A stretch of DNA of 64,000 nt, from the NCBI RefSeq assembly GCF_022024055.1, contig NZ_CP091788.1, positions 2,108,001 to 2,172,000 of the forward strand, given 5' to 3'. A model generated the notes under the pieces. The model made no database searches. It saw only the letters and a list, made by a program, of their open reading frames with translations, and was not told the origin of the DNA. This document shows, piece by piece, positions 37,265 to 48,537 of this stretch. The translations under genes and the position numbers were made by a program. The stretch comes from Prevotella sp. E2-28 (lineage in GTDB: Bacteria; Bacteroidota; Bacteroidia; Bacteroidales; Bacteroidaceae). Position 1 is the first letter of the stretch. Every line of letters begins with the position of its first letter.

Positions 37265-37915
37265 TTATAGTATTCTCAGAACACCGACGAGCCTGTAGTA
37301 ACCGAATATCATGTTCTTTGGAACAGTGAAGTCGGTGTACTCCTCGCGGTTGTAAGATACACATCTTACACAATCCTTTTCGTCGTATATCTTTTTGAAC
37401 TTAGGCCCTTCTGGTGTGTCAAGCAGGTAGTCGTTACCCCACTCTATGATGGTAGACTTCTTGAACGCAAGTTCGTCTCCTCTGTCATACTTTGGCGACA
37501 TTCTGTTGTTCTTGAGTATAAGAGTAAAATCATAGTCTGCAAACTGAGTGATAATTGGCTTCTCTTGACAGAGTTTCCTTTTGTCACCCTCGTAGTAATC
37601 GGATAAGTGGCCACCAGACATGGATTTAGGTAGGCGCGGGCGCGTATCTCCGACAATACGTGAAGCTTCCGACTTATCGCCATACATTGTACCCTCACCG
37701 AACACAAGCCAATCCTTATTTATCTTAGGAAAGGTTTTGAGAATATCAGAACAGAATCCTCGCGGGAAATGTCTCTCACCAGACATAACTTGATGCACGT
37801 TAGCAGGCTGTCTACCAATAGCAATGGCAAACGAACGCTGTGTGTGGCCTTCTTGGTGTATCAGATTGTTAATTCTTTCCCTAAGTTGGTTTTCTTCATA
37901 TTCAGTTCCATTCAT
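37265..37915 (-). CDS. CI/LexA-like prophage repressor (HTH plus S24-type domain)
   Basis: 216 residues from the ATG MNGTEYEENQ; longer starts would run through the operators. Residues about 8-50 form an HTH (TQRSFAIAIGRQPANVHQVMSGE). The C-terminal half has the S24 fold pattern with Ser in NRMSPKYDRGD (catalytic-serine position) and a lysine in GPKFKKIYD, so it may self-cleave upon RecA activation. It should keep the prophage silent by binding the TTACCAA/TTGGTAA operators just upstream. It is transcribed away from the early genes, as in lambda-type switches. Confidence 0.85.
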   Translation of the reverse strand: MNGTEYEENQLRERINNLIHQEGHTQRSFAIAIGRQPANVHQVMSGERHFPRGFCSDILKTFPKINKDWLVFGEGTMYGDKSEASRIVGDTRPRLPKSMSGGHLSDYYEGDKRKLCQEKPIITQFADYDFTLILKNNRMSPKYDRGDELAFKKSTIIEWGNDYLLDTPEGPKFKKIYDEKDCVRCVSYNREEYTDFTVPKNMIFGYYRLVGVLRIL

Positions 37916-37961
37916 AGCACGGTTGAAATAATGTAAATATAACCAAATAAATATTAATATA

Positions 37962-38021
37962 TTACCAAATAGTTTTGCTATTTTGGTAAAACTTTGTATA
38001 TTTGCATTACCAAGTTGGTAA
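37962..38021 (+). promoter_or_regulatory. Prophage early promoter with repressor operators
   Basis: The rightward promoter is TTTG (37974-37977), 19 bases, TATATTTG (37997-38004). Operator 1, TTACCAAGTTGGTAA (38007-38021), is a perfect 15-base palindrome over the transcription start. Operator 2 pairs TTACCAAATAG (37962-37972) with CTATTTTGGTAA (37978-37989) and covers the -33 box. Half sites (TTTTTGGTTAAA, ATCACCAAA) occur further right near 38128 and 38153. Both sites would block RNA polymerase when occupied. Confidence 0.75.
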
Positions 38022-38160
38022 AACAACAAGGCAGCAAAAAGTAATCAACCACGTAAGTAAAACTCCGTAGCGCAAGTGACGATGCAAATATACGGTAAAA
38101 TCACATAAGTTGGAACTTTTTGGTTAAACTTTTAAGTAAAATTATAAATTTATCACCAAA

Positions 38161-38400
38161 ATGGTTGCTAATAAAATAGGCACAGAAGACATTACAAATA
38201 TTGGAGCTTTCGGTCGGCTCAAAGTCACACTCCCCGACTTTGCAGCCGTAGAATCAGCCAAAAACTTAGTAACAAGAGTTAAATCAAGATACCCAAGAAA
38301 CGATGGTTTAACATATACAACGGGAGTAGATAAAAAAACCAACACCTTAACCATCGAGGTCGTAAGACCAGAGGATGTAAAGAGAAAGAATAAGTCGTAG
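38161..38400 (+). CDS. Prophage early protein, unknown (79 aa)
   Basis: First gene after the repressed early promoter. The sequence (VTLPDFAAVESAKNLVTRVKSRYPRNDGLTYTTGVDKKTNTLTIEVVRPEDVKRK) suggests a small alpha/beta fold with a basic tail. I see no helix-turn-helix, so it is not an obvious Cro; it could be another regulator. Confidence 0.7.
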   Translation: MVANKIGTEDITNIGAFGRLKVTLPDFAAVESAKNLVTRVKSRYPRNDGLTYTTGVDKKTNTLTIEVVRPEDVKRKNKS

Positions 38401-38402
38401 GA

Positions 38403-38648
38403 ATGGAGCAAATGAGAACTGCCAAGGTTGATGCGAGGAAATTATGGATGTCCCAAAAGGAAGCCATGAAATACCTCGGTGTAGGCAAGGACTGGCTAAA
38501 GGAACGTAGACTTAACGGAAGTCTGCACTATTCAATGGTCGGAAATACAGCTTTCTATATCAAATCAGAGATTGACAACATTATCATAGACAATGCAGTC
38601 TCTGGCAGGCAGCTATTCAAAAAGGAAAAGAACAACTCTCTTAAATAA
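38403..38648 (+). CDS. Excisionase-like small HTH protein
   Basis: 81 residues with a winged-helix type motif: WMSQKEAMKYLGVGKDWLKERRLNGSLHYSMVGNTAFYIKSEIDNII, the pattern of excisionase/MerR-like domains in which a helix-turn-helix is followed by a beta-wing. Separated by two bases from the preceding gene. It could be the directionality factor for excision or a second regulator. Confidence 0.65.
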   Translation: MEQMRTAKVDARKLWMSQKEAMKYLGVGKDWLKERRLNGSLHYSMVGNTAFYIKSEIDNIIIDNAVSGRQLFKKEKNNSLK

Positions 38649-38688
38649 TTTGGTTAGTTTTAAGCTTTTAGTTTTGATTTTTTCAGCC

Positions 38689-38717
38689 GCCAAGTACCGC
38701 AGTGATGCGCGAACGGC
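38689..38717 (+). ncRNA. Loop-E/GNRA hairpin 4 bases before tRNA-Lys
   Basis: 29 bases: GCC, AAGTA, helix CGCA/TGCG closed by GTGA, GAA, then CGGC. The AGTA/GAA internal loop has the form of a bulged-G (loop E) motif and GTGA is a GNRA tetraloop. The same outline with a different helix precedes the third tRNA. It ends exactly four bases before the tRNA. Confidence 0.6.
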
Positions 38718-38721
38718 AATC

Positions 38722-38793
38722 GGGCCGTTAGCTCAGTGGTAGAGCAATAGGCTTTTAACCTATGGGGCGAGAGTTCGAATCTCTCACGGCTTA
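38722..38793 (+). tRNA. tRNA-Lys (anticodon TTT)
   Basis: Cloverleaf: acceptor GGGCCGT/ACGGCTT (two G-U pairs at the end), D arm AGCTCAGTGGTAGAGC, anticodon stem ATAGG/CCTAT with loop CTTTTAA (TTT), T arm GAGAG-TTCGAAT-CTCTC, discriminator A. No encoded CCA. Phage-borne. Confidence 0.9.
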
Positions 38794-38806
38794 CGAATAA
38801 TATACG

Positions 38807-38829
38807 AGTTCTTTGACATATTGAACACA
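38807..38829 (+). promoter_or_regulatory. Possible boxA-like antitermination element
   Basis: GTTCTTTGACATATTGAACA resembles the boxA region of bacterial rRNA leaders (TTCTTTGAAAACTGAA type). It lies 14 bases after tRNA-Lys, inside the tRNA transcript. No antiterminator protein is visible, so this is tentative. Confidence 0.3.
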
Positions 38830-38948
38830 AAGTATTACATTCAACGAGAATATTAACGCTGATACGTCAGCAAGTAACAAACTTATATAAACAACGCAAA
38901 AGGACGTTGTGTAGGTGAAAGTCCTACGGAAGTATTACCAAGACCAAT

Positions 38949-38968
38949 AGCCCTCAAGTGAGAGGGCT
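38949..38968 (+). ncRNA. Hairpin 3 bases before tRNA-Trp
   Basis: A seven-pair perfect stem AGCCCTC/GAGGGCT with loop AAGTGA, ending three bases before tRNA-Trp. It occupies the position of the loop-E hairpins of the other two tRNAs but has a different internal structure. Confidence 0.5.
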
Positions 38969-38971
38969 GAT

Positions 38972-39044
38972 GTACCCTTAGTTCAGTAGGTAGAACGCTG
39001 GTCTCCAAAACCAGAGGTCGCATGTTCGAGTCGTGCAGGGTATG
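38972..39044 (+). tRNA. tRNA-Trp (anticodon CCA)
   Basis: Acceptor GTACCCT/AGGGTAT, D arm AGTTCAGTAGGTAGAAC, anticodon stem CTGGT/ACCAG with loop CTCCAAA (CCA), T arm GCATG-TTCGAGT-CGTGC, discriminator G as expected for Trp. No CCA encoded. Confidence 0.9.
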
Positions 39045-39127
39045 CAATGTTCTTTTCATAAATCACGAAAGCCCACAGGTGTGTGAGCATCAGAAATGAC
39101 TTTTGATTGTCATACTTTTTTACTTAT

Positions 39128-39156
39128 GCCAAGTATCTCTGTGAAGAGAGAACGGC
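39128..39156 (+). ncRNA. Second loop-E/GNRA hairpin 4 bases before tRNA-Met/Ile
   Basis: 29 bases: GCC, AAGTA, helix TCTCT/AGAGA closed by GTGA, GAA, then CGGC. Identical to the hairpin before tRNA-Lys outside the helix, and the helix differs by paired changes. Ends four bases before the tRNA. Confidence 0.6.
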
Positions 39157-39160
39157 TAAC

Positions 39161-39234
39161 GGACTTGTAGCTCAGTCGGTTAGAGCAGAACACTCATAAT
39201 GTTAAGGTCACGGGTTCGAGTCCCGTTGAGTCCA
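39161..39234 (+). tRNA. tRNA with anticodon CAT (Met or Ile2)
   Basis: Acceptor GGACTTG/TGAGTCC, D arm AGCTCAGTCGGTTAGAGC, anticodon loop CTCATAA (CAT), T arm CACGGG-TTCGAG-TCCCGT, discriminator A. Acceptor C1 mismatch typical of initiator tRNA is absent, so it is elongator Met or lysidine-type Ile; sequence alone does not decide. The first anticodon-stem pair (G27-A43) is mismatched. Confidence 0.85.
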
Positions 39235-39249
39235 CTAAACAGATTTAAT

Positions 39250-39417
39250 ATGGATATAAATGTTAGTAAGTCTGACTACAAATCTCTTCTCTCACTGATT
39301 GACAAGTCTGTCAACATCATAAGGTCTAAATCGCCAACAACGAGAGAATATAATGTAGCACGACAACTCTGGAATATCAAAAAGAAAGTTGAACGTAATA
39401 ATAACCAAAAACAATGA
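39250..39417 (+). CDS. Small prophage protein, unknown (55 aa)
   Basis: MDINVSKSDYKSLLSLIDKS...: helical, Lys-rich at the end. The start chosen lies after the tRNA. Its stop overlaps the next start (ATGA). Function unknown. Confidence 0.6.
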   Translation: MDINVSKSDYKSLLSLIDKSVNIIRSKSPTTREYNVARQLWNIKKKVERNNNQKQ

Positions 39418-39605
39418 CAAGTAATTTATTTACAACTGCCCAACACAGCAATCATGTGAGGCAGATTGAATGTTATCCAGAATGCGGAAGGGAGAATGAC
39501 GAGTTTGAAGAACTGGAAGAAGATGACGATGAAGTATGTAATGACGGCTATCGTCTTGACCCCGCTTTCGGCTCATGGGAAGAAGTGAACGGAATGTTTT
39601 TATAG
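39414..39605 (+). CDS. Small acidic prophage protein, unknown (63 aa)
   Basis: 63 residues with an acidic run (FEELEEDDDEVC) and three Cys. Overlaps the preceding gene by four bases. No family recognised. Confidence 0.55.
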   Translation: MTSNLFTTAQHSNHVRQIECYPECGRENDEFEELEEDDDEVCNDGYRLDPAFGSWEEVNGMFL

Positions 39606-39640
39606 AAAAATGGTAAAACATCTATCAAAAGAAAAAGAAA

Positions 39641-40504
39641 ATGGAAAACGAATTGACGATTATGGATGCCCAAGTTGAGGTTATTCAACCAAATCAAGGA
39701 AACAGCTATGGCGCACTTGAAGTTCTTAATCGCTCCGAGGTTGACTCTCAGATTGCTACAGCAAAGCAATATCCGAGAAATCTTGCCCGTGCGCTCAACA
39801 ACATTGAGACATTGGCAACTATGGACGAAGAAACCGCAGAGTCGTGCTTCTACGCCCTAAGACGCGGCGGTAAGTTACTCGAAGGCCCTTCTGTAAGAAT
39901 GGCAGAGATTGTAGCATCCGCATACGGCAATCTACGTGTTCAAGCCCGTATTATTGCCAATGATGGAAAGTTTATCACTGCACAGGGTGTTTGTCACGAT
40001 TTGGAAACCAACTACGCTGTTTCGGCAGAGGTAAAACGCCGCATCACTGACAGCAAGGGGCATACTTTCTCCGAGGACATGCAGGCTGTTACAGGAAACG
40101 CAGCATGTTCTATTGCAATGCGTAATGCCGTGTTCAAGGTTGTTCCAATGGCTATGTTCAAGAATGTCATGGGAAAGGTTAAACAAGTATCAATCGGCAA
40201 GTCGCTTTCTCTTGAAGAGAGCAGAGGTCGCATGATTGACTACTTCGGGAAACTTGGTGTTGATAAGCAACATATCTTTGATTACTTGTCGGTTGACAAG
40301 ATTGACGAGATTGACATTGATATGGTGTGCGAACTTCGAGGTCTTGCCAACGCAATCAAGGACGGTCAAACAACAATTCAAGAAACATTCTATCCAAAAC
40401 CAGTCGATACGGCAAATAATGTAGAGGCAAAGCCAAATGCAGACTTGTTTAGTGGCGGTGCGCAAGATGACAAGCCGAAGACTGAAAAAAAACAAAAAAT
40501 CTAA
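39641..40504 (+). CDS. Putative phage ssDNA-annealing/recombination protein
   Basis: 287 residues. The first 200 (QYPRNLARALNNIETLATMDEETAESCFYALRRGGKLLEGPSVRMAEIVASAYGNLRVQARI..) are well structured and the last 50 are a disordered Lys-rich tail, as in phage annealing proteins. This type of protein sits beside YqaJ exonucleases in Bacteroidota phages, as here (three bases before it), which suggests it anneals single strands in a two-component recombination system. It is not a clear RecT or Erf, so the role rests on context. Confidence 0.5.
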   Translation: MENELTIMDAQVEVIQPNQGNSYGALEVLNRSEVDSQIATAKQYPRNLARALNNIETLATMDEETAESCFYALRRGGKLLEGPSVRMAEIVASAYGNLRVQARIIANDGKFITAQGVCHDLETNYAVSAEVKRRITDSKGHTFSEDMQAVTGNAACSIAMRNAVFKVVPMAMFKNVMGKVKQVSIGKSLSLEESRGRMIDYFGKLGVDKQHIFDYLSVDKIDEIDIDMVCELRGLANAIKDGQTTIQETFYPKPVDTANNVEAKPNADLFSGGAQDDKPKTEKKQKI

Positions 40505-48501: not shown

Positions 48502-48537
48502 AAAAAAAGTCCTCACGACCTTCTCAGGCAATGAGGA
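48502..48537 (-). terminator. Lysis operon terminator
   Basis: On the minus strand TCCTCA pairs with TGAGGA around a 16-base loop, followed by CTTTTTTT. Confidence 0.65.

Follow-up and report, generated by a model that had tools for sequence, protein, structure and literature searches.

A window of 64,000 nucleotides of DNA from Prevotella sp. E2-28 (the whole stretch analyzed, G000:C1:2108001-2172000) was studied; the genome comprises 3.76 Mb in two contigs. The right part of the window is a prophage. Its repressor gene lies on the minus strand, and the early genes to the right of the repressor gene lie on the plus strand. The early genes encode, among others, a helix-turn-helix (HTH)-type protein, a RecE-like exonuclease and a replication-initiation-like protein. 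Three tRNAs, identified with ARAGORN and Rfam, separate the first early genes from the recombination genes: tRNA-Lys (UUU), tRNA-Trp (CCA) and a tRNA with the anticodon CAU. Each of the three is led by a hairpin. The subject of this study is the hairpin with a loop-E-like internal loop and a GNRA-type tetraloop, which occurs twice, before tRNA-Lys (copy 1) and before the CAU tRNA (copy 2).

The leader hairpins of the prophage tRNAs

Both copies contain the elements GCC-AAGUA, GUGA and GAAC-GGC. Copy 1 consists of the outer stem GCC/GGC, the internal loop AGUA/GAA, an inner helix of four pairs and a C.C mismatch, and the GUGA tetraloop. Aligned without gaps over the 29-mer and the spacer, the copies are identical at 25 of 33 positions, and their flanks differ. 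Six of the eight differences fall into three pairs of the inner helix and two into the spacer. Two inner pairs change on both sides, from G-C to U-A and from A-U to U-A. The outermost pair of the inner helix is C.C in the Lys copy, which has four of the five inner pairs, and U-A in the Met copy, a detail absent from the first-pass annotation of this DNA. In the Lys copy an alternative, shifted outer stem is possible, in which GCCG at 38686-38689 pairs with CGGC (centroid fold).

The first-pass annotation had described two 29-mers with four-base spacers and a different seven-pair hairpin three bases before tRNA-Trp. The sequence and the ARAGORN tRNA starts (38722 and 39161) confirm the former, and the arms AGCCCTC and GAGGGCT of the latter are present. 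An alternative form of the tRNA-Trp hairpin has eight pairs, including a U.G pair, and ends two bases from the tRNA, so that the distances between hairpin and tRNA are four bases (Lys), two to three bases (Trp) and four bases (CAU). The compensatory changes in the helix, also reported there, were found in two pairs that change on both sides; two sequences do not suffice for significance, the covariation count being reached in 128 of 500 shuffles. The remark that no described motif of this kind was known is supported as well. At the gathering score, the Rfam 15 scan of the whole window yielded the three tRNAs only, with the hairpins matching no family, and no such motif was found in the open-access PMC literature.

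The strand 5′-AGUA-3′ opposite 5′-GAA-3′ between two helices is the sequence of the G-bulged loop-E (sarcin-ricin) motif. Judged by strand sequence, both copies carry this motif, its three-dimensional pairing being a prediction; the outer stem is paired in both copies, and the inner helix in nine of ten cells. The sarcin-ricin loop of 23S rRNA likewise has AGUA/GAA strands beside a GNRA-capped helix, whereas the hairpins of the window are not rRNA, have five inner pair positions and stand in a tRNA leader. The motif is unlikely to recur by chance: for the pattern AGTA-N3-9-GNRA-N3-9-GAACGGC, 0.02 matches are expected in the window and two were found, a number reached in none of 100 shuffles. 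The looser pattern without the helix is not rare, with four matches in the whole genome against nine for the reversed control. A covariance model of both copies found no third copy in the whole genome at E<=10.

Two known kinds of element were considered and rejected. Stem I of T-box leaders carries an AGUA/S-turn, a loop-E type element resembling that of the hairpins. The hairpins stand before tRNA genes, however, and no T-box match was obtained in 38400-39300 at E<=10. Rho-independent terminators also place a hairpin at an RNA boundary, but here no U-run follows the stems, and the tRNA begins directly after AATC or TAAC. The terminator scan of 37800-39700 listed no terminator on the plus strand.

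The features are collected in Table 1. The 177-base space between tRNA-Lys and tRNA-Trp (38795-38971) weakly resembles the Rfam DUF2693 RNA (E 0.067, below threshold), and its part 38880-38971 folds strongly (z -3.8).

Table 1. Coordinates of the features of the window discussed in the text
Feature	Position	Strand	Basis or remark
CI-like repressor gene	37265..38029	-	at left of early region
Small HTH-type phage gene	38403..38648	+	stop codon 40 bases before hairpin copy 1
Loop-E/GNRA leader hairpin, copy 1	38689..38717	+	sequence, covariance model
Spacer AATC, 4 bases, before tRNA-Lys	38718..38721	+	sequence, ARAGORN
tRNA-Lys (UUU)	38722..38794	+	ARAGORN, Rfam
boxA-like GAGTTCTTTGACATATTG, between tRNA-Lys and tRNA-Trp	38806..38823	+	sequence comparison
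Different hairpin AGCCCTC-AAGTGA-GAGGGCT, 3 bases before tRNA-Trp	38949..38968	+	sequence, fold
tRNA-Trp (CCA)	38972..39045	+	ARAGORN, Rfam
Loop-E/GNRA leader hairpin, copy 2, 5 inner pairs	39128..39156	+	sequence, covariance model
Spacer TAAC, 4 bases, before CAU tRNA	39157..39160	+	sequence, ARAGORN
CAU tRNA	39161..39235	+	ARAGORN call Met; could be Ile2
Early gene phrog_3657	39641..40504	+	query for finding related prophages
Weak two-part GNRA-like hairpin, GAGA loop, then CTTTTTTT	48510..48537	-	22.5 bits, E 0.013, own prophage

Hairpins before the tRNAs of other phages

The position of hairpins before other phage tRNAs was counted in several sets of leaders. Leaders sharing their last 45 bases were merged; related sequences are still present, so the counts are not independent of one another. 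Any leader lying less than 60 bases behind another tRNA was excluded from the 409-, 53- and 148-leader counts and from the comparison of upstream stop codons given below. The first set holds 409 unique leaders, each separated by at least 60 bases from any upstream tRNA, taken from IMG/VR loci and record L480; the loci were chosen via tRNA patterns, loop-E patterns (without a tRNA at the match) and a protein, and L480 via a query containing a hairpin. Stems were required to be free of mismatches and to have at least six pairs, with one G-U pair allowed, and a leader may count at two distances. A stem ending at exactly four bases was found in 20 of these isolated leaders, two of them supplied by L480, against 2.2 in shuffled sequences. 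The neighboring distances of three and five bases gave 6 against 1.2 and 10 against 1.4, respectively.

A similar picture was obtained with nine phage records, namely four crAss-like genomes, Prevotella phage Lak-A1, Bacteroides phage DAC19 and three uncultured phages, which were picked by similarity to tRNA regions, several of the records with queries that bore a hairpin. A stable fold ends at four bases in 5 of their 53 leaders (two of the five from L480) against 0.3, and at five bases in 3 against 0.7. The 148-leader, 747-leader and 510-leader sets, as well as the upstream-stop comparison, include contigs chosen for showing hairpins. The 148 leaders gave 18 hairpins at four bases against 1.45, two of the 18 rows preceding doubtful tRNA-Pyl calls (L577, L605), with 3 and 4 hairpins at distances of three and five bases. 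In the widest set, 510 isolated viral leaders, the distance of four bases has the highest count, 28 against 6.3; three bases gave 20 against 7.9 and five bases 15 against 7.1. The peak at four bases is clear by count and in two smaller sets, and less so as a ratio in the widest set. The placement of hairpins before phage tRNAs is statistically supported with these caveats, and the search of open-access PMC papers revealed no account of leader hairpins at a fixed distance from phage tRNAs.

Some of these hairpins keep their loop while the stem changes. For the ACAGCGGU loop, six of seven pairs change on both sides among 13 picked sequences, with 12 such cells against 2.6 in shuffled alignments. 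The search of IMG/VR for CACAGCGGTG shortly before TAGCTCAG gave ten matches, in eight of which the stem is extended by three to five pairs; seven of the eight are distinct (L482 and L488 are equal in sequence), and one is the contig in which the loop first appeared. An ARAGORN tRNA follows five of these eight ACAGCGGU-loop hairpins after three to four bases, the spacing of the other three having been read by eye. The sequence ACAGCGGT was located 24 times in eight IMG/VR contigs, each about 100 kb long, which were chosen for showing leader hairpins or holding the same tRNA and are probably crAss-like, judging by size and tRNA similarity. At eight of the 24 places the stem is extended by at least four pairs; six of the eight lie in tRNA leaders, two of these as the outer member of a tandem pair, and two lie outside. 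The GAAGUAUAGUA loop stands four bases before two tRNA-Met and the similar GAAUAAUAGUA loop five bases before a tRNA-Arg, with differing stems.

Closest to the hairpin of the window are two-part hairpins with a GUGA or GGGA loop, which consist of an outer stem, an internal loop and an inner stem. They were found at two to six bases in 9 of 747 leaders, against a mean of 0.3 and a maximum of 1 in 20 shuffles; six other distance windows gave 0-1 of 738 leaders for two-part GNRA hairpins. Five two-part hairpins form an ungapped alignment in which 8 of 11 pairs differ on both sides; 98% of its cells are paired, compared with 65% in shuffled alignments. Because the scan that selected them required pairing, these figures lean to structure. 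The members of alignments A3 and A5 were chosen for their pairing, and their pair counts are biased in the same direction. The window hairpin and the two-part hairpins are not called one family because the internal loop differs.

The exact motif was searched for in phage and genome sequences. The pattern GCCAAGTA-N3-8-GNRA-N3-8-GAACGGC gave 66 matches in IMG/VR; no match site carried a tRNA, and the inner helix was complete in none of the 66. Looser IMG/VR matches before a tRNA-like TAG-box were followed by an ARAGORN tRNA in 0 of 17 and 0 of 58 cases, again with no full inner helix. In GTDB contigs four matches were obtained, none with a tRNA, the best inner helix having four of five pairs. 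A looser pattern is present in 11 of 60 relative genomes, the own genome included (matched strings only). The covariance model R1 was run on 398 genomes of the genus, again with the own genome, under strict filters that may miss weak copies; 45 genomes have a match at E<=1, the best match other than the own copies reaching 27 bits against 50. No tRNA is present at any of the 29 fetched R1 loci from other genomes (about 2.5-3 kb each; further weak matches were not fetched). Among the matches examined from IMG/VR, the GTDB contigs and the 397 congeneric genomes, the exact motif looks private to this prophage.

Related prophages were also sought through the early gene at 39641-40504, which has relatives at E<=1e-40 in two other genomes of the 398 and in eight IMG/VR loci. 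A tRNA cluster like the present one is absent from all fetched loci of these relatives. One locus (L237) has a single tRNA-Val about 3.6 kb away, taken for a host gene, and two others (L118, L120) contain one tRNA each and no R1 match. The search with the HTH gene gave no viral relative, and the matches of the DNA search of the 398 genomes were swamped by host tRNAs.

A proposed boundary hairpin at the RNase P site and its alternatives

The RNase P site is the obvious landmark at the 5′ end of a tRNA. We propose that each copy is a boundary hairpin beside this site in the 5′ leader of a phage pre-tRNA, a tentative reading to which we assign a probability of about 0.38. The sequence of the structure, its fixed spacing, the pair changes between the copies and the peak of unrelated hairpins at that spacing are observations, to which we add RNase P as the presumed landmark and a conjectured role of the hairpin there. 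The hairpin, with loop E under a GUGA-capped helix, would fold compactly while being transcribed. Its base would be held four nucleotides from the cleavage site, near the site and with the bases beside the cut left free, and the hairpin would prevent the leader from pairing with the tRNA. After the RNase P cut, the upstream RNA would keep the hairpin as a protected 3′ end with a four-nucleotide tail, a poor start for 3′ exonucleases. The four free nucleotides may be a compromise, keeping the hairpin close without blocking RNase P. The 3′ arm of copy 1, AACGGC, can pair with GCCGUU of tRNA-Lys, and the minimum-energy fold of leader and tRNA does so, under an energy model that gives loop E no credit. 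A hairpin that forms first could therefore protect the tRNA.

A paper on the specificity of RNase P (PMC10731613) reports that cleavage becomes about 10-fold slower when a stable stem-loop stands two nucleotides from the leader start, which makes distance important, and that leader stem-loops determine the order of valVW processing. The inhibitory leader stem-loops of the valVW pre-tRNA resemble the present hairpins in their location, within the 5′ leader and near the RNase P site; here, in contrast, the same hairpin precedes two tRNAs at exactly four bases and has a conserved loop-E/GNRA core.

Several results weigh against the boundary hairpin. Close leader hairpins inhibit RNase P in published data. 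In the 409-leader set most other distances up to 12 bases are raised too, with 10 hairpins at ten bases and 13 at eleven bases against 1.0 each. The 510-leader set gives 10, 12, 11 and 8 hairpins at distances of seven to ten bases against 3.3, 2.7, 2.1 and 1.9, a fold-rise like that at four bases, and this lowers our confidence. On the host chromosome, 2 of 40 isolated leaders have a hairpin at four bases against 0.4, and the placement may therefore not be a phage trait. Distance to an upstream stop codon served as a test of the supposed benefit for the upstream RNA. The 25 tRNAs with a hairpin at three to five bases are no nearer to such a codon than the 123 others (p = 0.64); a stop lies within 800 bases upstream of 18 of the 25 and 90 of the 123, at medians of 231 and 255 bases. 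Since the two spaces between the tRNAs of the window contain no plus-strand open reading frame of 60 codons, two of the three upstream RNAs appear to be non-coding. The absence of the exact motif elsewhere, as far as searched, belongs to the same side, as does the behavior of the two-part GUGA model, which hits many intergenic places with a best non-seed E of 4e-7. Among 38 such places viewed, five are immediately followed by an ARAGORN tRNA, all of them seeds of the model itself.

A strictly tRNA-specific GUGA family was rejected on account of the intergenic places without tRNAs, and the two-part GUGA hairpin seems to serve phages more generally at RNA ends or boundaries, before tRNAs and elsewhere. 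Three of the 38 places lie inside an open reading frame of at least 60 codons and 11 lie 23-55 bases after the stop of such a frame; one ends four bases before a weak match to a type-I hammerhead (23.6 bits, gathering score 34). A T-rich tail stands behind 9 of 36 places, some weak or duplicate matches of the model having been left out of the 38-place and 36-place sets. The hairpin at 48510..48537 with its T-run is possibly an intrinsic terminator of the same prophage.

Further structured elements were seen in these records. Six IMG/VR contigs share the stretch ATAGAA...GGAAACCTCAAG, with GAGAGGGT further on, after a GUGA hairpin (L551:4244, L549:6410 (-), L543:14921, L559:18540, L577:16622 and L539:6786 (-)); the stretch is probably a structured RNA, and no Rfam family matches its copy in L551 at E<=1. 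At L490:18041-18068 a GUGA-type hairpin is followed a few bases later by a tRNA-like sequence, recognized by eye and uncalled by ARAGORN. The same Bohxovirus record (L490) contains RAGATH-12, RAGATH-15 and a permuted transfer-messenger RNA (tmRNA), and permuted tmRNAs occur in three IMG/VR loci (L539, L543, L549). In cr131_1 (L535), RAGATH-1 hammerhead ribozymes lie upstream of tRNA-Gln and tRNA-Met.

The proximity of a hairpin to all three tRNAs, at two to four bases, would also suit a brake or timer that slows RNase P, the tRNAs being freed in a set order or once a factor melts or binds the hairpin. We regard this as unlikely; with four bases left free, the inhibition may largely be avoided. 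A site for protein binding or antitermination, with a boxB-like hairpin and boxA letting the polymerase read through untranslated tRNA segments, would account for the conserved loop bases. The boxA-like GAGTTCTTTGACATATTG at 38806 is close to GAGTTCTTTGAAAGATTT, which is present in the rRNA leaders of all four operons of the genome (L240-L243), 230-246 bases before 16S, and 38 of 749 tRNAs have a boxA-like site in the 200 bases upstream (19 have one downstream) against 2.8 expected, counts that are not independent because one site can serve several tRNAs. The boxA/boxB sites of rrn leaders and lambda nut resemble the locus in combining a GNRA-type hairpin with a nearby boxA-like sequence; here, however, the site follows tRNA-Lys, a weaker one (GTTCTTTTCATA) stands at 39049, and none that is clear precedes copy 1. 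The loops moreover vary among phages, and a fixed four-base distance to a tRNA is not known to be a feature of nut sites. Antitermination is in our view quite unlikely.

The hairpin could also mark a mobile cassette, a DNA unit copied with or before tRNA genes and having little function of its own. The same hairpin before two different tRNAs, the weakly similar T-rich stretch before both copies and the tandem ACAGCGGT hairpins in L460 and L464 are consistent with this, but neutral copies should vary in their loops, whereas the differences found are confined to inner-helix pairs and the spacer, with two pairs changed on both sides; the cassette is accordingly judged rather improbable. An origin by chance, or by recent duplication of a short local sequence without function, would fit a motif with only two copies, private to one prophage as far as searched. 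The combination of loop-E bases, pair changes and exact spacing, together with the expectation of 0.02 in the window, makes this very improbable. Least probable of all is a hairpin promoter of the kind used by the phage N4 virion polymerase, with the start at base 1 of the tRNA. The short, fixed distance from hairpin to RNA start in the N4 geometry would agree with the locus, but six of the eight extended ACAGCGGT sites in the eight IMG/VR contigs lie in tRNA leaders and not before genes generally, and no phage RNA polymerase is present among the 30 window proteins scanned.

With the boundary hairpin as the preferred reading, the proposals of the first-pass annotation can be reassessed. Selection on RNA structure at a fixed spacing, which it had put forward, agrees with the structure and the spacing of the hairpins, which match no Rfam family. 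The annotation had named a lack of further copies before tRNAs in related phages as grounds for refutation. As far as searched, such copies of the exact motif are indeed lacking, but the idea in its wider form holds up, since hairpins of other kinds stand at a similar distance in other phages. For the same reason, the spacing can be explained without a loop-specific binding site. Among the functions it had suggested, 5′ processing appears to be the likeliest.

A more general scheme can be imagined, although we regard it as unlikely. Bacteroidota phages would possess a general device in which interchangeable, covarying hairpins (loop-E/GUGA, ACAGCGGU, two-part GUGA/GGGA and GAAGUAUAGUA) stand four bases before tRNAs. 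The RNase P cut would yield a ready-capped 3′ end, and the tRNA would act at the same time as a terminator by processing. In other places the GUGA hairpin would provide this same cap, together with a U-tract or beside other structured RNAs.

Phage tRNAs are usually studied for their part in decoding, and their excision from long phage transcripts is less clear. The placement of the hairpins hints at an undescribed mark for where a tRNA is cut from a longer transcript. If this is true, a hairpin at a fixed distance, arrived at repeatedly with different sequences, would offer a direct approach to tRNA maturation and to RNA 3′ ends in crAss-like phages and their relatives.
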